Virus record (IMG/VR): IMGVR_UViG_3300029309_000393
Span: 1-21,688 of that record
Direction: 5' to 3' (one strand)
Source of the DNA: a virus
Length of the DNA: 21,688 nucleotides
The notes below the pieces were generated by a model, which searched no databases, had not been told where the DNA came from, and saw only the letters and a list, made by a program, of their open reading frames with translations. Below, piece by piece: positions 2,304 to 17,926 of the stretch. Both the position numbers and the translations under genes were made by a program. Within the stretch, counting starts at the first letter, position 1, and every line of letters starts with the position of its first letter.

Positions 2304-2458
2304 TGACCTATAACTTTCTTAAATACATTCGAGGTTTTCATTCCCTCGGTAACAAAGTGATCGACAAGTCTGTTCATCGATATTCTCTGTGTCTTTGATT
2401 GTTGTTTTAGTTTTTCGTAAGTCTTTTCATCAATACGAATGTTTAATTGTCGCATCAT
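2300..2458 (-). CDS. Ribbon-helix-helix (Arc/CopG-type) DNA-binding protein
   Basis: 52 aa from ATG 2458, preceded by a near-perfect AAGGAGG seven nt upstream, the strongest ribosome site of the left operon. The sequence has the RHH plan: a short N-terminal strand with alternating residues (RQLNIRID, about 3-10), helix A (EKTYEKLKQQSK), a turn, and helix B (SMNRLVDHFVTEGM, about 28-40). RHH proteins bind operators as dimers through the strand. Being second in an operon that begins at a divergent control region, it is a natural candidate for an autoregulator of that region or a repressor/Arc-like switch protein. The target is not known. Confidence 0.8.
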   Translation of the reverse strand: MMRQLNIRIDEKTYEKLKQQSKTQRISMNRLVDHFVTEGMKTSNVFKKVIGQ

Positions 2459-2646
2459 TTACACACCTCCTTGAAAGCGGTGTAGCCAAAGAAATCTATG
2501 GCGGGTCGATCAATGACGGGCGATATACCTTTCCATTTAAACTCACACTCATACTTTTTATTGTTCTCGATTGTTGCATTAATAAACTTTAGATTATCTG
2601 GGTTGGCTATGTTAAGTGCCAGTATTATTGTAAATATAAATTCCAT
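2455..2646 (-). CDS. Hypothetical small protein with hydrophobic N-terminus, first gene of left operon
   Basis: 63 aa from ATG 2646. A longer in-frame start at 2706 exists, but AGGAG lies 5 nt before 2646 and the longer form would run through the leader hairpin. The N-terminus (MEFIFTIILALNIA) is hydrophobic and could be a membrane anchor or an uncleaved signal; the rest (KKYECEFKWKGISPVIDRP) looks like a small beta domain. The stop overlaps the RHH start as ATGA. It is the first gene downstream of the leader/hairpin described separately, so its start is the one that the structure could control. Family not recognised. Confidence 0.65.
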   Translation of the reverse strand: MEFIFTIILALNIANPDNLKFINATIENNKKYECEFKWKGISPVIDRPAIDFFGYTAFKEVCK

Positions 2647-2664
2647 TGCTTCTCCTAGTGTTAA

Positions 2665-2704
2665 GGGGAGAATCTCAATTTTACAGAAGGAACAGATTCT
2701 CCCC
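2665..2704 (-). promoter_or_regulatory. Perfect 11-bp inverted repeat in the leader of the left operon
   Basis: On the minus strand GGGGAGAATCT (2704-2694) and AGATTCTCCCC (2675-2665) are perfectly complementary around an 18-nt loop. No T-run follows, so it is not a normal terminator. The 3' arm contains TTCTCC (2672-2667), which is also complementary to GGAGAA (2655-2650), the ribosome site of the gene starting at 2646. Two exclusive foldings are therefore possible, one leaving the ribosome site free and one burying it. The repeats are directly visible; regulation is inferred. Confidence 0.7.
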
Positions 2705-2743
2705 ATATTTCCACCAATAAAAGGTAGGCATAACAGGAAACAT
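2681..2743 (-). CDS. Possible leader peptide (20 codons) overlapping the hairpin
   Basis: A frame from ATG 2743 to TAA 2683-2681 encodes a very aromatic 20-mer containing TFYWWKY, with adjacent Trp codons. Its GENL codons coincide with the 5' arm of the hairpin and its stop lies in the loop. No convincing ribosome site precedes the ATG (a GAGG is about 17 nt away), which argues against efficient translation. It is listed because leader peptides with such codon clusters overlap attenuator arms in known systems; it may be chance. Confidence 0.25.
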   Translation of the reverse strand: MFPVMPTFYWWKYGENLFLL

Positions 2744-2756
2744 AAAAAAAGTTACA

Positions 2757-2769
2757 TCTACCTCTTGTA
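2757..2769 (-). promoter_or_regulatory. Candidate phage promoter motif, copy D
   Basis: The minus strand reads TACAAGAGGTAGA, matching the copies at 74-86, 9889-9901 and 14903-14915 (consensus TAYAARRGGTAGA). It lies about 115 nt upstream of the first gene of the left operon, pointing into it, just before the hairpin leader. A weaker plus-strand relative (AATAAAAGGTAGG, two mismatches) is at 2716-2728. By analogy with single-subunit phage RNA polymerase promoters, whose TATA run is followed by GG, transcription could begin at the GG at 2762-2761. No ATG or gene start is adjacent, so it cannot be explained as a ribosome site. Confidence 0.5.
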
Positions 2770-2798
2770 AAGATAGCAAAAATATATTAGATTGATAC
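2765..2798 (+). promoter_or_regulatory. Candidate promoter for the plus-strand operon
   Basis: TTGTAA (2765-2770) is followed after 17 nt by TAGATT (2788-2793), a plausible sigma-70-type pair. The downstream half, ATATTAGATTGATAC (2784-2798), recurs with one change at 4080-4094, again upstream of a plus-strand gene and again 18-19 nt after a TTG box. The first gene starts at 2846. The -35 box overlaps the minus-strand motif at 2757-2769, so the two directions would compete. Confidence 0.5.
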
Positions 2799-2814
2799 TA
2801 GGTATTTTTACCTA
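2799..2814. promoter_or_regulatory. Operator-like palindrome
   Basis: TAGGTA and TACCTA form perfect 6-bp arms around TTTT, beginning one base after the shared promoter motif and ending 31 bases before the first plus-strand ORF. It sits where a repressor would block transcription start or elongation. The RHH protein and the LexA-like domain encoded nearby are candidate binders, but nothing in the sequence links them directly. It is a poor fit for a terminator, as the stem is AT-rich and no T-run follows. Confidence 0.4.
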
Positions 2815-2845
2815 ATGGCAATTAAGCCAAAAGAAAGGAAACATA

Positions 2846-2995
2846 ATGAATAATCAATTACTACATACAATGTTTGATGCTCAAATGGAGATATTAAATG
2901 ATTTATATTTCAGCGAACGTCTAATGTTACCATTGAAAACAAAAGCTGATATTTATTTAGCAAAAGAATTAAATTTAACTATAGGGGGTAAATAA
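2846..2995 (+). CDS. Hypothetical microprotein (49 aa), first gene of plus operon
   Basis: Frame from ATG 2846 to TAA 2993-2995, preceded by AAAGGA 6 nt upstream. The product is short, helical and amphipathic (MNNQLLHTMFDAQMEILNDL, then PLKTKADIYLAKELNL). No metal-binding, membrane or clear helix-turn-helix motif. It is the first cistron after the divergent control region and is followed after 3 nt by the zinc protein, so it is almost certainly co-transcribed with the recombinase. Function unknown. Confidence 0.65.
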   Translation: MNNQLLHTMFDAQMEILNDLYFSERLMLPLKTKADIYLAKELNLTIGGK

Positions 2996-2998
2996 ATA

Positions 2999-3289
2999 AT
3001 GGCAACAAAAAGAAAAATACAAATAGAAGTAGTGGGATATTTGTGGGTGTGTCCACATGACCACGAAACTTTTATGCCCCATATGACTCAATGGTTTCAT
3101 TGTGATCGTTGTAACAAAAAATATAAAACATCGGATTGTCAACTAAATGAATGGTATAGACACGAACAAATCTATGACGACTACGACAATGCAATACAAA
3201 CTTATGAAGATAAACTGTATCTAAAAAGTATGGAAGAATGGCTTAAAAAACCTAAACTAAAAATTAAAAATATTTCGGAGGAAACATAA
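2999..3289 (+). CDS. Putative zinc-finger protein (96 aa)
   Basis: The first half carries possible metal ligands: C18, H20 and H22 (CPHDH), H28, H34-C35xxC38 (HCDRC) and C47. This resembles a rubredoxin-like or zinc-ribbon knuckle. The second half is a charged helix (NAIQTYEDKLYLKSMEEWL) with a basic tail (KKPKLKIK). The TAA stop shares its last base with the ATG of the serine recombinase (TAATG), implying coupled translation and possibly a working partnership, such as a DNA-binding accessory factor. Family not recognised. Confidence 0.7.
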   Translation: MATKRKIQIEVVGYLWVCPHDHETFMPHMTQWFHCDRCNKKYKTSDCQLNEWYRHEQIYDDYDNAIQTYEDKLYLKSMEEWLKKPKLKIKNISEET

Positions 3290-4050
3290 TGAGTATATTT
3301 AAAACAACAGAAGGCAAGGAGCATACGGGTTTGTATGTTGGTTATCTTCGAGTGTCCACCGAGGATCAGAATTGTACTCGTCAAATATTTAATATTAAAA
3401 AATATCTAAATGGTGGAAAGCATACCCTTAAATTTTTTACTGAAGAACCTATGTCGGGTGCAACCGACCCGTATAAAAGGGAAGAGTTGATGAAGGCAGT
3501 TGACTATTGTCGTAAACATAAAGCAACACTTGTCTTTGCAGACCTTGAGAGATTGTGTCGTAAAATGTGGATGACACTTAGATTCTTGGATGAAGTTATA
3601 AAACAAAACAAGATAAACTTTATTGTCTGTAATGATCCAACCATATCAGAAGATCCTATGCGACTTCAGATGAAGGCAATGTTTTCAGAATGGGAACGCC
3701 AGAGAATCTCTGAACGAACCAAAGAAACACTTGACTCATATCAAGCACAGATAAAAGAGAAGGGATTTTTTACTTCAAAAGAGGGCAAGAAAATCAGACG
3801 TTTGGGTGTGCATAGTTTAATGGATAAAGCTAGGCAGAAGTCAGGCGAGGTAGCAAGTGCAGAAGCAGATCGTTTTGCTAAAAGTATTTACTACTATCTA
3901 AACGATGCTTACACTCAATGTTCTTCTCTTAATGAGATGAGTATATTTCTTAATGATCGTAAAGTTAAAACACCCAGAGGAGGGAGCTGGTATCCTTCGA
4001 GTGTTAAGAATATGTTGAAGCGATTGAAGATAGGAAATTATGATGACTAA
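3289..4050 (+). CDS. Serine recombinase (resolvase/invertase-type catalytic domain)
   Basis: 253 aa. The catalytic domain begins at GYLRVSTEDQ, with the nucleophile Ser23 in the canonical R-V-S context. MSGATDP (55-61) and LERLCR (R88, R91) match the conserved arginine block, and SEWERQRISERTKE starts the long E helix. The C-terminal part (LNEMSIFLNDRKVKTPRGG, then a Trp and SSVKNML) matches the small helix-turn-helix recombinase domain in which TPRGG.W precedes the last helix. The protein is longer than a simple resolvase (about 185 aa) but much shorter than large serine integrases (450 aa or more), as it lacks the zinc ribbon and coiled coil. It may integrate, invert or resolve DNA; no att site or invertible segment could be identified here. 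Confidence 0.9.
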   Translation: MSIFKTTEGKEHTGLYVGYLRVSTEDQNCTRQIFNIKKYLNGGKHTLKFFTEEPMSGATDPYKREELMKAVDYCRKHKATLVFADLERLCRKMWMTLRFLDEVIKQNKINFIVCNDPTISEDPMRLQMKAMFSEWERQRISERTKETLDSYQAQIKEKGFFTSKEGKKIRRLGVHSLMDKARQKSGEVASAEADRFAKSIYYYLNDAYTQCSSLNEMSIFLNDRKVKTPRGGSWYPSSVKNMLKRLKIGNYDD

Positions 4051-5770: not shown

Positions 5771-6548
5771 ATTAGCAAATCAATTACAACAAGTAATATT
5801 AAAAGGAGATCTTAGAACCTTATCGGATCAAGATAAATTAATCTATTATAAAAATGTGTGTGATAGTATAGGTATCAATCCATTAACCAAACCTTTTGAT
5901 TACATTGTTCTGAATAATAAACAAACTTTGTATGCAACTAAAAATTGTACCGATCAATTACGATCACTTCATAAGATTAGTATTACAATCAAAGAACAAA
6001 AAATAGATAATGGTTTGTTAACAGTTGTTGTGGAAGGATCGGATCGATCTGGACGACAAGATGCGGATATGGGTTTCGCAAATGTGCAAGGACTTCGAGG
6101 AGAAGCTCTCGGTAATGCCATGCTCAAAGCAGTAACAAAAGCAAAAAGAAGATTGACGCTATCAATTTGTGGACTCGGTGGATTTTTAGATGAAACCGAG
6201 GTAGAAGATCTCCCACAGAGAGCCGTCAGTAAACAAAAGCAAGGTAAGATGACTCCTAATACTCAAGATGTATTAAAGGTTATTGACGAGTCTAATCCTC
6301 CCATCTATACGCTAGTGCTACCAGGCAACAAAGAAAAGGATCATGACTCTTTAGAAACACTTGCATTTACATTCAATGACCTGATGTTGGAGATAATTAA
6401 TCATCCTGATAAAGATAAAAAGGATAAAGTTAAAACAATCGAGAAAGCATTTAAGGTTAATGAAAAGGTTATGACACAATTAAAAGATGCAAACAAAAAA
6501 ACCTACGATGAACTAACAACTAAGTTTGAGAATTTTAAAAATGGATAA
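5763..6548 (+). CDS. RecT/Bet-like single-strand annealing protein
   Basis: 261 aa. The N-terminal half matches phage annealing-type proteins: SIGINPLTKPFDYI (36-48, the NP..KPF/Y motif of the RecT/Bet superfamily), a beta stretch with TLYATKNCTDQLR, and a long conserved segment GEALGNAMLKAVTKAKRR (113-130) followed by LTLSICGLG. The C-terminal third (about 155-261) is charged, helical and probably variable, as in other annealases. It would coat and anneal single strands exposed by the adjacent YqaJ nuclease. AAAGGAG precedes the ATG. The family name is assigned from motif memory and context rather than a profile search, so a related annealase family (Sak-type) remains possible. Confidence 0.75.
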   Translation: MNELANQLQQVILKGDLRTLSDQDKLIYYKNVCDSIGINPLTKPFDYIVLNNKQTLYATKNCTDQLRSLHKISITIKEQKIDNGLLTVVVEGSDRSGRQDADMGFANVQGLRGEALGNAMLKAVTKAKRRLTLSICGLGGFLDETEVEDLPQRAVSKQKQGKMTPNTQDVLKVIDESNPPIYTLVLPGNKEKDHDSLETLAFTFNDLMLEIINHPDKDKKDKVKTIEKAFKVNEKVMTQLKDANKKTYDELTTKFENFKNG

Positions 6549-6756
6549 AAATTTTACACCACTTTCTCAGAAGGTTCTTGCTTTCATAAAAGAATATATG
6601 GAACGAGAAAAGTTTGCACCCTCACAAATTGAAATCAAAGAACATTTCAAACATAAAACTTTATCGGCAGTTCAACTCTCACTTAAAAGATTGGAGCAGT
6701 TACAAAAGATTGAACGTGTCCGAGGGAAGGGGAGATCAATCAGACTTCTTGATTAA
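6541..6756 (+). CDS. LexA-type winged-helix DNA-binding domain, no protease
   Basis: 71 aa from ATG 6541; a TTG 15 nt earlier is less likely because the ATG overlaps the annealase stop by 8 nt. The whole protein aligns with the LexA N-terminal domain: LSQKVLAFIKEYM, FAPSQIEIKEHF (the P.R.EIA-like turn), LSAVQLSLKRLEQLQKIERV (recognition helix and wing) and a final RGKGRSIRLL like LexA's SRGIRLL. The S24 peptidase half (normally residues about 75-200) is absent, so self-cleavage is impossible. It may be a repressor or LexA-box competitor, or it may regulate this operon. Being last and coupled to the recombination genes suggests a link to DNA damage or replication control. Confidence 0.8.
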   Translation: MDKNFTPLSQKVLAFIKEYMEREKFAPSQIEIKEHFKHKTLSAVQLSLKRLEQLQKIERVRGKGRSIRLLD

Positions 6757-13590: not shown

Positions 13591-14892
13591 TTATCCAAAT
13601 GCAAGTTGAGGACTACCTAACAATATAGAATTATCAGCTTTAACAATATAAGGCACGACATCGTAGGCACTATTAGTTGAACTTAAAGTTAAACCTCCCG
13701 CTGCTGGTGTTTCATAATCTGTGCCTAAACTTATTGTGCCCGCACTACCACTACTTGGCTGTATAAATATCAATACACCTGTTTGACCTACATTACTTGC
13801 TTCAGTTGTAGGATTGGTCAAAGTATTTGCACCACTTCCTAGAGTAAGAATAAAGTTTTGATTAGCATCAAAGTCTAAAGTTTTACTAGATGAAATAGTA
13901 GCAGTTTCAGTTTTGGGAACTTGAGCAGTAGTATATGTGCCTGTTAATTGTGAAACATTAATTGTTTTGTTGGTAAGAGTTTGCGTAGCAGTTGCACCTA
14001 CAAGTTCTTGATTGCCGCCTGGTGGCAAAGTCAATTCGTTAGTTACTCCAGCACTATGAGGTTGTGCTTTAACTATTTGTCCATGTGAATTCGATTCGCA
14101 GTTAAATTGTATTGCACCAGAATTTGTATTACCTTTTACTGTTACATGACCAGTTCCATTTGGTGCTAATTCAAGATCTCGATTACTTGTGGTTACAATA
14201 TCAAATGTAACTAAATCTAAATTAGCACCTAATTGTGGAGATGAATCATCCGCAAGTGTAGCTATACCAGATCCTGTTGCTCCTGTCGGTATGCCTAATG
14301 TTAAATTTAATTGATCACCGCTCACACTTGCCGATCCTGTGGCACTTGATCCAGCAGACAACGTATTGGTTGTTAAAGCAACTGTACTTATTCCCTTACT
14401 TAATAAGGTTAGATCTGTTCCATCCGTATTGTAGCCAATAACTTTGTTAGCATTGTTTGAGGTAGTATCATTGTAAGGTACAGTTAAACTTGGTGCGGTT
14501 GATCCTGTTACAAATTCTGGTAGCTGTAAGGTACGATCTATTTTTTCTTCAAACTGTTGCAACACCATGATCGTATTATCGAAATCTGTTTCTAATGATG
14601 CAGCGGTAAAGGATGCTCCTGTTGAGTATGCCGATTCTCTTGATAAAGGTTTGTTGGCGAGGATGGTAAGTTTCTGTCCTGACGTGGGAGCTGACGCATA
14701 GTTAACAGTTCCCGTTCCATTGGTGGCGATTGTTACAGTATAATTACTCGATAAGGATTGAGTCGTTTCGCCAAGTATAACTTTTAATTCACTCGCAGCA
14801 TTGATCTGAAAAGAAAATGCAAAAGATGTTTGCGATCCGTTGGTGGTGTACTGAATCCGCCTATTAGTATCGTTAATATCAAATGTCGCCAT
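13591..14892 (-). CDS. Tail fibre with T7 gp17-type N-terminus
   Basis: 433 aa. The N-terminal 130 residues match the T7 gp17 attachment domain: ATFDINDTNRRIQYTTNGSQ, then FAFSFQINAASELKVILG, LTILANKPLSRESAYS and FTAASLETDFDNTIMVLQQF. This domain docks the fibre to the tail. The middle is Ser/Thr/Gly-rich fibre shaft with repeats like TNTLSAGSSATGSASVSG, and the C-terminal part (GVLIFIQPSSGSAGTISLG, DVVPYIVKADNSIL) is the kind of terminal domain seen in marine-phage fibres. The adjacent LamG/SPRY adhesins may bind to it. T7 synteny, with gp17 after gp16, supports the call. Confidence 0.88.
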   Translation of the reverse strand: MATFDINDTNRRIQYTTNGSQTSFAFSFQINAASELKVILGETTQSLSSNYTVTIATNGTGTVNYASAPTSGQKLTILANKPLSRESAYSTGASFTAASLETDFDNTIMVLQQFEEKIDRTLQLPEFVTGSTAPSLTVPYNDTTSNNANKVIGYNTDGTDLTLLSKGISTVALTTNTLSAGSSATGSASVSGDQLNLTLGIPTGATGSGIATLADDSSPQLGANLDLVTFDIVTTSNRDLELAPNGTGHVTVKGNTNSGAIQFNCESNSHGQIVKAQPHSAGVTNELTLPPGGNQELVGATATQTLTNKTINVSQLTGTYTTAQVPKTETATISSSKTLDFDANQNFILTLGSGANTLTNPTTEASNVGQTGVLIFIQPSSGSAGTISLGTDYETPAAGGLTLSSTNSAYDVVPYIVKADNSILLGSPQLAFG

Positions 14893-14941: not shown

Positions 14942-17926
14942 TTAGTTTTTCAAGTTGTCTATTTTGATTTGTAATTCAGGATATTTTTTTAACAATAATT
15001 CTGTACCGCTTTTTCTTGCATTTGAAAGTATAGAGTTTAAATCACTAAACTGATCGCTCTTTCTTTGAAGTAAAAAATCTGGATCAGCAATTTCTTTTTT
15101 TATTAGGTTCAATAAATTTTTTGTATCTTTGTAACCTCTATCATCGCTACCTAAATGTCGTCTTTTATCAATATAATTACTTTCATTTATAAAAGTTACA
15201 AAGTCGTTATATTGAGCATCGCTAAGTTTTACTCTTTCTATTGTTCTAGGATGACTTTTAAAAGTTCCAACTGTATCAGATAAATCTCTCAAATATTCGT
15301 TTACATCATTAAAATCTGGATTTGTAACTTTTACAGGAGAAACTACTTCGTAATTTAATCCATTGCTTTGTTGTCTTATTTCTCCCCAAAAGTTTAAACC
15401 TGGCAACAAATCATCTGAGAAAAGTGGGTTTCTTGATTTTGCTCTATTAAGGCCAGTATAAAATCCTTCAACGAAAGAAGGAAATGGAACATACTCAAGA
15501 GTACCTAATTGATCTTCGTTTAACATGGTATTAGAAGCATTTGGATTTTGTAATCTTTCAAGAGTTGCTCTAAAACTTGTCTGACCGACTAATTGAAAAT
15601 CAGAAAAAAAACTTAAAGGAGTATTGACCATTGTATCTAAACCAATACCACCAAACTGCCCTATAGCATTTGTTCCGACAGATGTTAATTGCTCTCCAAA
15701 ATATTTACCAAATCTCTCAAAAGTATCTGCTTGACTTGAGTGTGGATTACCAGCAGCTTTCATAAGTTCAGAAACACCTTGAAGGTATGGCATATTTTGA
15801 GCATATTCAGCAGAAGCCAAACTTCCCGCTTTAAATAAATTCTCTAACTCAAATAAATCTGCATCTGAATTGTGAGCGTAGTAAGCATAATCAGCAGCCA
15901 TTGATAAAACAGCAGACATTGGATCAAACCTTGAAAATGTATATCCTTTATATGTTCCATCGGTTTGTTTAAAATTAATTGAATATTGTGAAATATTAGC
16001 ACTATCTAAAAACTTTCTTGCCTTTTTGTCTTTAGGTCCTGACCCAACTACCACAATATCATCCCCAAAATATCCAGAAGCAAGTAACGCCATCATAGCA
16101 AATGTGCCATTACCAATCATTAACTTAGATACTGCCTTATCAAATTCTTTACCTCGCATTGGTGTAGTTCCAAAAGGATCTAACTTGCTAAGTTTCGGAT
16201 CAGAGTTCATAATAGTTCTGTATATAGGCGACCAATTTAAAGTTCTATCAAATGCTTCTTTCATAATATTTGTTGGTGTTTTACTAAAAGGCACAATAAT
16301 TTTCATGCCTGGTAGATTTGCCAATCCTACAAAGCTCGACCAGATACCTTCGGGATTGCCTTGAAATGTTCTTACAAGTGCTTCTTGACTCATTAAATCT
16401 TTTGTTGACTCCGATGGTTCTAAAATACCTTTTGTAAATTTATCCTCGGCTAGTTGTCTAGCTTGGTCTTTTGTAATCTCTCCTGACCTTCTTGCATTTT
16501 GATATGTAATCATGGCATCTCTATATGCTTCTCTATACATTACAGCTCGTTCAGATATTACTTTAAAAAACTCATCCTCTGAACCGAGAAAACGTCCTGG
16601 CAATCTTCCTAATATTCCAAGCATATCAACTAACGGAGCGTAAGCATCTTTATACCCTTTCATATTTCCTATACTGTCTAAAACTTGTGCTACATTATTG
16701 GTGCTTCCGATTGCTCTAGGATTTTTCAAATCAATCTTGGTCATAAAATCTCCAGCTTCTCCCGTTATTAGTGAAGATCCAAAACCCTTAAAAGCATCTT
16801 TTAGAGCATACATCATACCAAACGCTTCTGCGGATGCTTCTCCACTAGGTATCGGTCTAAATTTTGTTTGTCCGTTAACTTCAATTTTTGCAAAATTTTT
16901 ATCTGTAAAAGATCCTGACAAAACTCTATCGTTCACATCTCCTAGTCTACCGCCCAAAGTTCTTACATTTCCTATAACTGATGCTAACCCTGTTTCTGCT
17001 GTTTGTAAGATTTGAAATCCCGCATTACCCGCAACATTAACAATATGAGTTACAGGACTTGATAAGATAGCATTTATGTATAATTCCATTACTGCATCAT
17101 AACTTTTTAAAGCCATGCCTTCTCTTGCAAATTCAGCTCTTCCCGCTGGTGAAAGCGATAAATATGCTTCAGTAGAATAATCAATAAGATCTTCATCTAA
17201 GTTTTCCATAAAATCATTAAGCTCATCTCTATACTGTTTAAGATTTATATTTCTTAGTTTTTGTACGGAAGATACTGCTCCAAGCGACCGACCAACTTCT
17301 GACACCGATCCTGATACTTGACCCATCAAATTAATCTGTATAGCTAGTAAACTTTGAAATTCTTTAAACTCACTTTTTTTAAGAGCCATGTTTGTTCTAG
17401 GTATATCACGAATTTTTCTGGCTTTTTGCTCAAGCTCTTGTCCTAGTTGTAGTGTCATTATTAAACCACTCATCATATCTTCCACAGGCAATATAGTGCC
17501 AACCTTTCTACTCATAATTTTATATGCTACATCTGTAAATCCTGTTTTATCTGCTGTTTCGGTCATTACTTTTTTAACCATATCCTCTAAGGGTTGGCGT
17601 GGTCGTTTTAAAAAATCAAAGAGTTCTTTGTTTTGTATTTTAATTTTTTGCATTAGATCGGTAACATTTACTGTAGTACCATCCCGACCAAGTATTTTGT
17701 TAGTAAGTTTAGTAAAATCTAATCCTTTGCCTTTATATCCACGATCAACAAGTGTTTTATTTAAAGCATCAACAGCATCTTCGCTAACACTTTTAACAAT
17801 TATTTCTCCCCTTGCTCCTGGTGTTAGACTATCTTGCGGAGCAGAAAATTTTCTTACTTCCTTTTGTGTTTCTTCTGCTTTACTTGCTTGTTTAGCTAAA
17901 TAACTAAATATGTTTTTGATTGTCAT
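14942..17926 (-). CDS. Large internal virion / DNA-ejection protein (T7 gp16-like position)
   Basis: 994 aa, mostly helical, Lys/Ser/Asp-rich. The segment LYINAILSSPVTHIVNVAGN (around 283-302) and later hydrophobic stretches (FAMMALLASGYFGDD) are typical of the largest internal/ejection proteins of T7-like and marine podoviruses. The C-terminal third is helical and ends in a charged coil. It is ordered after the other core proteins and before the gp17-type fibre, exactly where T7 gp16 lies. No lytic transglycosylase motif was recognised near the N-terminus, unlike T7 gp16, so peptidoglycan digestion may be done elsewhere. It is probably ejected into the cell to form the trans-envelope channel. 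Confidence 0.75.
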   Translation of the reverse strand: MTIKNIFSYLAKQASKAEETQKEVRKFSAPQDSLTPGARGEIIVKSVSEDAVDALNKTLVDRGYKGKGLDFTKLTNKILGRDGTTVNVTDLMQKIKIQNKELFDFLKRPRQPLEDMVKKVMTETADKTGFTDVAYKIMSRKVGTILPVEDMMSGLIMTLQLGQELEQKARKIRDIPRTNMALKKSEFKEFQSLLAIQINLMGQVSGSVSEVGRSLGAVSSVQKLRNINLKQYRDELNDFMENLDEDLIDYSTEAYLSLSPAGRAEFAREGMALKSYDAVMELYINAILSSPVTHIVNVAGNAGFQILQTAETGLASVIGNVRTLGGRLGDVNDRVLSGSFTDKNFAKIEVNGQTKFRPIPSGEASAEAFGMMYALKDAFKGFGSSLITGEAGDFMTKIDLKNPRAIGSTNNVAQVLDSIGNMKGYKDAYAPLVDMLGILGRLPGRFLGSEDEFFKVISERAVMYREAYRDAMITYQNARRSGEITKDQARQLAEDKFTKGILEPSESTKDLMSQEALVRTFQGNPEGIWSSFVGLANLPGMKIIVPFSKTPTNIMKEAFDRTLNWSPIYRTIMNSDPKLSKLDPFGTTPMRGKEFDKAVSKLMIGNGTFAMMALLASGYFGDDIVVVGSGPKDKKARKFLDSANISQYSINFKQTDGTYKGYTFSRFDPMSAVLSMAADYAYYAHNSDADLFELENLFKAGSLASAEYAQNMPYLQGVSELMKAAGNPHSSQADTFERFGKYFGEQLTSVGTNAIGQFGGIGLDTMVNTPLSFFSDFQLVGQTSFRATLERLQNPNASNTMLNEDQLGTLEYVPFPSFVEGFYTGLNRAKSRNPLFSDDLLPGLNFWGEIRQQSNGLNYEVVSPVKVTNPDFNDVNEYLRDLSDTVGTFKSHPRTIERVKLSDAQYNDFVTFINESNYIDKRRHLGSDDRGYKDTKNLLNLIKKEIADPDFLLQRKSDQFSDLNSILSNARKSGTELLLKKYPELQIKIDNLKN

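Follow-up and report, generated by a model that had tools for sequence, protein, structure and literature searches.

What does the RNA upstream of the left operon do? In the window (the whole 21,688-nt stretch of viral DNA analyzed here), this minus-strand leader contains a perfect inverted repeat shortly before a Shine-Dalgarno (SD) sequence, and the initial annotation proposed that it works as a translational switch. The window is an IMG/VR virus fragment encoding internal virion proteins of the podovirus type, which distantly resemble proteins of Pelagibacter, Roseobacter and Methylophilales phages. For comparative analysis, homologues were gathered by using as queries the 63-aa protein encoded directly downstream of the leader, leader patterns and the replication protein, which yielded about 15 distinct homologous leaders from marine viral contigs, some of them close to one another. 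Measured by the identity of this first gene, the divergent members of the set are L013 and L035 (about 70%), L066 (61%) and L114/L115 (49%).

The leader (2764-2644, minus strand) comprises, in order, a hairpin that we term P1, a linker, the annotated hairpin (P2), the SD and the first left-operon gene. The SD, AGGAG (2652..2656, minus strand), lies 8 nt past P2, and the gene (2455..2646, minus strand) encodes a 63-aa protein of a conserved family, with relatives 49-98% identical. This family shares an ENNxKYxCxFxxKG motif conserved in marine phages; its gene opens the operon in the window and its relatives and is internal in more distant phages. The left operon also encodes a DUF1064/Holliday-junction-resolvase-like gene and a replication initiation protein. 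The promoter-like motif previously noted upstream does not correspond to a sigma-70 consensus, for which a generic promoter scan returned no match upstream of the leader, but an extended -10-like element that the scan does not list, TGCTATCTT (2770..2778, minus strand), is present and takes the form TGCTATNNN in all distinct relatives. By our reading this element would be an extended -10 from which the leader is transcribed, with a predicted RNA start at about 2764-2762. P1 follows directly behind the conserved TGCTATNNN and would therefore form the extreme 5′ terminus of the transcript. The 123-nt leader (2762-2640, minus strand) folds better than shuffled sequences (z -2.46), and its minimum-energy structure retains P2. 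A candidate 83-aa ORF starting at the ATG at 2706, which would make the hairpin coding sequence, was discarded, as relatives carry stops in frame or lack the ATG.

The two arms of P2, GGGGAGAATCT (2694..2704, minus strand) and AGATTCTCCCC (2665..2675, minus strand), are exact 11-bp reverse complements and pair perfectly, as first annotated. Besides a chance pair at 14162/14229, they are the only G+C-rich 10-base exact inverted-repeat set at short distance in the window, and simulated sequences of the same dinucleotide make-up contain 0.05 G+C-rich 11-mer pairs per window. P2 alone is worth -17.7 kcal/mol, and the runner-up among hairpins preceding the SD at the 29 gene starts of the window reaches -7.2. 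The arms differ extensively among relatives while remaining complementary: GGAGGAGATTGAGG/CCTTAGTCTTCTCC in L002, AGGGAGRATTGG/CTGATTCTCCCT in L003-L010, GTAGGGAAAATC/GGTTTTCCCTAC in L011 and L012, GTAGAGAGAATC/GATTCTCTCTAC in L013, GGGAGAGAGA/TCTCTCTCCC in L035 and AACTAGAGAGAG/CTCTCTCTAGTT in L114. In an alignment of 11 distinct hairpins, whose segments were excised as hairpins and whose arms share ancestry, pairing is kept with two-sided changes in 7 of 10 pairs (13 cells in total); the covariation score is matched by none of 500 shuffles, and slid controls fall far below it. The P2 region folds better than its shuffles in most leaders with distinct arms, the L003-L010 group showing no significant difference. 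Its 3′ end lies 4-10 nt ahead of the SD in every relative that bears P2; L066 has no P2, and there it is P1 that ends 8 nt ahead of the SD. Judged by these comparisons, P2 is under selection as an RNA structure, and the region resembles the left-operon leader RNA that it had been taken for. P2 is not aptamer-like, since its pairing is conserved and its sequence is not. P2 was also considered as an intrinsic terminator and rejected, a terminator scan revealing no such site there.

A second element, P1 (2762-2723), lies upstream of P2 and was absent from the initial annotation. Its 5′ strand GGTAGATGTAAC (2751..2762, minus strand) pairs with its 3′ strand GTTATGCCTACC (2723..2734, minus strand) around the 16-nt loop TTTTTTTATGTTTCCT (2735..2750, minus strand). 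The hairpin folds as GGUAGAUGUAAC-loop-GUUAUGCCUACC, and the loop, U7AUGUUUCCU, is conserved as U7-AUGUUUCCU. Two lineages, with stems CCUAGAUGUUAC/GUGAUAUCUAGG in L066 and GCUAGAUGUAAC/GUUAAAUCUAGC in L114 around a near-identical loop, provide the support for stem covariation: three pairs change on both sides, a result reached by 4 of 500 shuffles. The loop is conserved as far as L066 and is better conserved than the outer part of its own stem. UUUUAUU follows directly after P1, whose loop exceeds the loop limit of the terminator scan. The linker TTTTATTGGTGGAAA (2708..2722, minus strand) is present in most leaders and replaced in L011, L012, L066 and L114; its GGAAA could form a pseudoknot with UUUCC of the P1 loop.

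The leader thus presents compensatory pairing and a fixed place between the inferred promoter and the start codon, the features of a structured cis-acting 5′ leader. Our preferred explanation, which we advance tentatively and with somewhat less than even confidence, is that 2764-2644 is the structured 5′ leader of an early/replication operon in which P2 matters by shape only and the P1 loop by sequence. P2 would most likely act through structure alone, directing the fold of the leader away from the ribosome site, protecting the message or doing both (as an insulator or stabilizer), and would not toggle between two states. The inferred function of P1 would reside in its loop as the sequence-specific part, which probably contacts another RNA or a protein. 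In folds computed from P2 onward only, blocking the P2 5′ arm makes the SD less accessible than it is with intact P2 in 8 of 10 leaders, and in five of these the difference is large. When full-length leaders are modeled, most of them have a largely paired SD whose chief partner is UUCCU of the P1 loop, a pairing that does not clearly exceed in strength what shuffled upstream sequence gives; regulation by the whole leader is therefore possible, and simple insulation unproven.

The switch initially proposed is a translational attenuator or riboswitch in which displacement of the P2 5′ arm leaves the 3′ arm to bury the SD. Its sequence basis is sound: TTCTCC (2672-2667) is complementary to GGAGAA (2655-2650), the SD of the gene at 2646, and the first arm itself includes GGAGAA. 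Of the two exclusive hairpins thus envisaged, the mutual exclusivity of the pairings holds but their balance does not, as the SD-burying alternative (-5.8 kcal/mol with the 5′ arm hidden) falls about 12 kcal/mol short of P2. With that arm hidden, the complementarity, which extends over the window, L002-L010 and L114, is worth -5.8 to -8.1 kcal/mol, and blocking the 5′ arm lowers SD accessibility in local folds of the window, L002, L003, L010 and L014, yet the alternative is negligible in L011, L012 and L035 (about -1 to -1.5 kcal/mol) and P2 is missing altogether from L066. We further counted, among 28 other gene starts, those that fit the P2 3′ arm no worse than the leader's own SD does. The own SD is preferred in the window (equalled by 2 starts), the L003 group (4 in L003) and L114 (3), and is not preferred in L002 (10), L012 (22), L013 (15), L014 (14) or L035 (22), so that across relatives the fit is generic overall and is not kept above what any SD would provide. 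The purine/pyrimidine polarity of the arms may in fact make some fit to the SD unavoidable, since purines stay on one arm when a stem pair changes by way of G-U. Among the homologues we found no conserved SD-sequestering alternative hairpin, SD-bearing leader peptide or conserved ligand-binding core, and P2 has no conserved sensor sequence and no Rfam match. Given the non-conserved SD fit, the sequence freedom of P2 and the lack of a fixed SD-bearing leader peptide, we reject the switch as the leading explanation; it is conceivable for the window and its closest relatives, and unlikely as a general account. In a different form of cis-control, the P1 loop would serve as an anti-SD for the gene that it precedes, with P2 bridging loop and SD; in 7 of 11 leaders the models pair the SD mainly with loop UUCCU (or CUCCU), and L011 has an exact CUCCUUU/AAAGGAG match. 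The weakness of the pairing (-5.5 to -9.3 kcal/mol), an SD not clearly less accessible than in shuffled-upstream controls and the absence of the interaction from L012, L035, L066 and L114 make this arrangement quite improbable. We consider it highly improbable that a leader peptide (MFPVMPTFYWWK...) begins in the P1 loop and that its ribosome regulates P2. An ATG or TTG does occupy that spot in all leaders tested, and a few changes are synonymous, but no SD precedes it and the frame stops before, inside or after the P2 loop, after only 7 aa in L011, or enters the main gene. Equally remote is the notion that these repeats are operators or recombinase sites acting as DNA instead of RNA structures: the region does lie between divergent transcription units and adjoins a serine recombinase gene, but the P2 arms diverge widely while staying complementary, which a DNA-binding protein of one phage group is unlikely to tolerate, and conservation is higher in the P1 loop than in the outer stem pairs that enclose it.

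A further possibility, which we regard as fairly unlikely while giving it some weight, concerns the partner of the P1 loop. The loop (UUAUGUUUCCU) of the left replication transcript might pair in trans with the ribosome-binding site (RBS) of the right operon, AGGAAACAUAA, and block its translation, either within the leader or as a small RNA if the leader were cut after P1, where UUUUAUU follows. The right-operon RBS, AGGAAACATAA (2836..2846, plus strand), is complementary to the P1 loop over a perfect 11 nt in the window, and an 11-nt complement recurs in L066. AGGAAACAT occurs only three times in the 21.7 kb, in the loop (on the opposite strand) and in the RBSs of the first right-operon gene and of the serine recombinase, which are the best loop partners among 29 gene starts; on the same scale, a coding site near 16672 scores slightly above both RBSs and a cis site near 2712 equals them. 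Together with a spacer outside the SD, the right RBS forms an invariant block in 14 relatives despite a swapped downstream gene. Against antisense pairing, hybrid energies are only modestly better than those of shuffled loops (p 0.005-0.24), the target does not follow the loop changes of L011, L012, L013 and L114, and L002, L008, L009, L010, L011 and L026 no longer match at the recombinase RBS. A cis partner, either GGAAAUAU or the leader's own SD, would suit the loop equally well, and the repeats, which share one DNA strand, could represent recombination homology. Compared with phage antisense RNAs of the c4/P4 CI type, the locus offers an exposed loop complementary to a target RBS, and we found neither covarying complementarity nor a c4-family match in the relatives and Rfam. 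The recombinase RBS was separately considered as a universal antisense target and set aside, its match being lost in several relatives. If antisense pairing did take place, switching on replication would silence the recombinase-carrying operon post-transcriptionally, whichever gene stands first.

Several known systems help place the structured leader that we favor. T7, T4 and ompA provide examples of structured 5′ leaders and stabilizing stem-loops in phage and bacterial mRNAs. As in those leaders, a hairpin is found close to or at the 5′ end and directly ahead of the SD, and for P2 structure outweighs sequence; in contrast to them, there are here two covarying hairpins, the first with a well-conserved loop, and no match to a curated RNA family. 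Phage antisense immunity RNAs, such as P1/P7 c4 RNA and P4 CI RNA, likewise are structured RNAs near a phage switch region with a loop complementary to the ribosome site of another operon. The RNA considered here differs from them in being the leader of a replication operon, in having no Rfam match and in showing no loop-target covariation. With ermC-type attenuators and translational riboswitches it shares overlapping arms upstream of the SD that allow two pairings, without sharing a conserved SD pairing, an SD-bearing leader peptide or a conserved aptamer. Like the leader predicted here, the put RNA of HK022 has two hairpins where an early phage transcript begins; the P2 sequence is variable here, and we know of no sequence relation between put and the leader.

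The leader occurs in one copy per genome and is confined to the phage group examined. Distant phages hold no copy, covariance-model matches elsewhere are weak and lie inside genes, and further pattern scans outside the group returned unrelated matches only; the replication protein has no relative in the bacterial genomes or cultured phages searched. Rfam contains no family matching the leader at gathering thresholds and nothing meaningful at permissive ones, and our literature search found no description of such a leader. The element appears to be an uncatalogued leader RNA, supported by covariation, in marine podovirus-like phages. Its position beside a recombinase, within the divergent control region, is one at which a choice between lysis and integration could be taken, and, if the pairing of loop and RBS is real, it would provide an RNA link between both divergent operons.

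The right operon, which carries the serine recombinase and a RecE-like exonuclease, displays features of its own. A 16-bp palindrome, TAGGTATTTTTACCTA (2799..2814, plus strand), lies between the divergent units at the predicted start of the right transcript, and different palindromes occupy the same place in L066 (TAGACATAATTGTCTA) and L114 (TAGGCAAAAATGCCTA, read on the other strand); it is a candidate operator with changed specificity or a candidate 5′ RNA hairpin. Just before the right-operon SD there is a short hairpin, TGGC-AATTAA-GCCA (2816..2829, plus strand), whose stem is preserved in L066 by a U-A to G-C change. Comparison of the window, L002-L014, L026, L035, L066 and L114 reveals that the first right-operon gene (window 2836-3290) is exchanged exactly at the start codon, the constant leader ending in AAAGGAAACATAATG. 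The serine recombinase occurs in two types, about 34% identical, which are swapped between the window and L003 exactly at AGGAAACATAATGA. In L114, around 2902, the recombinase leader likewise has a hairpin with CCAAAAGAAAGGAAACATTATG after it, matching the cassette that precedes the first right-operon gene. At the end of the recombination operon, a 71-aa protein (6541-6756, plus strand) bears weak similarity to the phage transcriptional repressor family PHROG 362 and is a candidate regulator of the palindrome.
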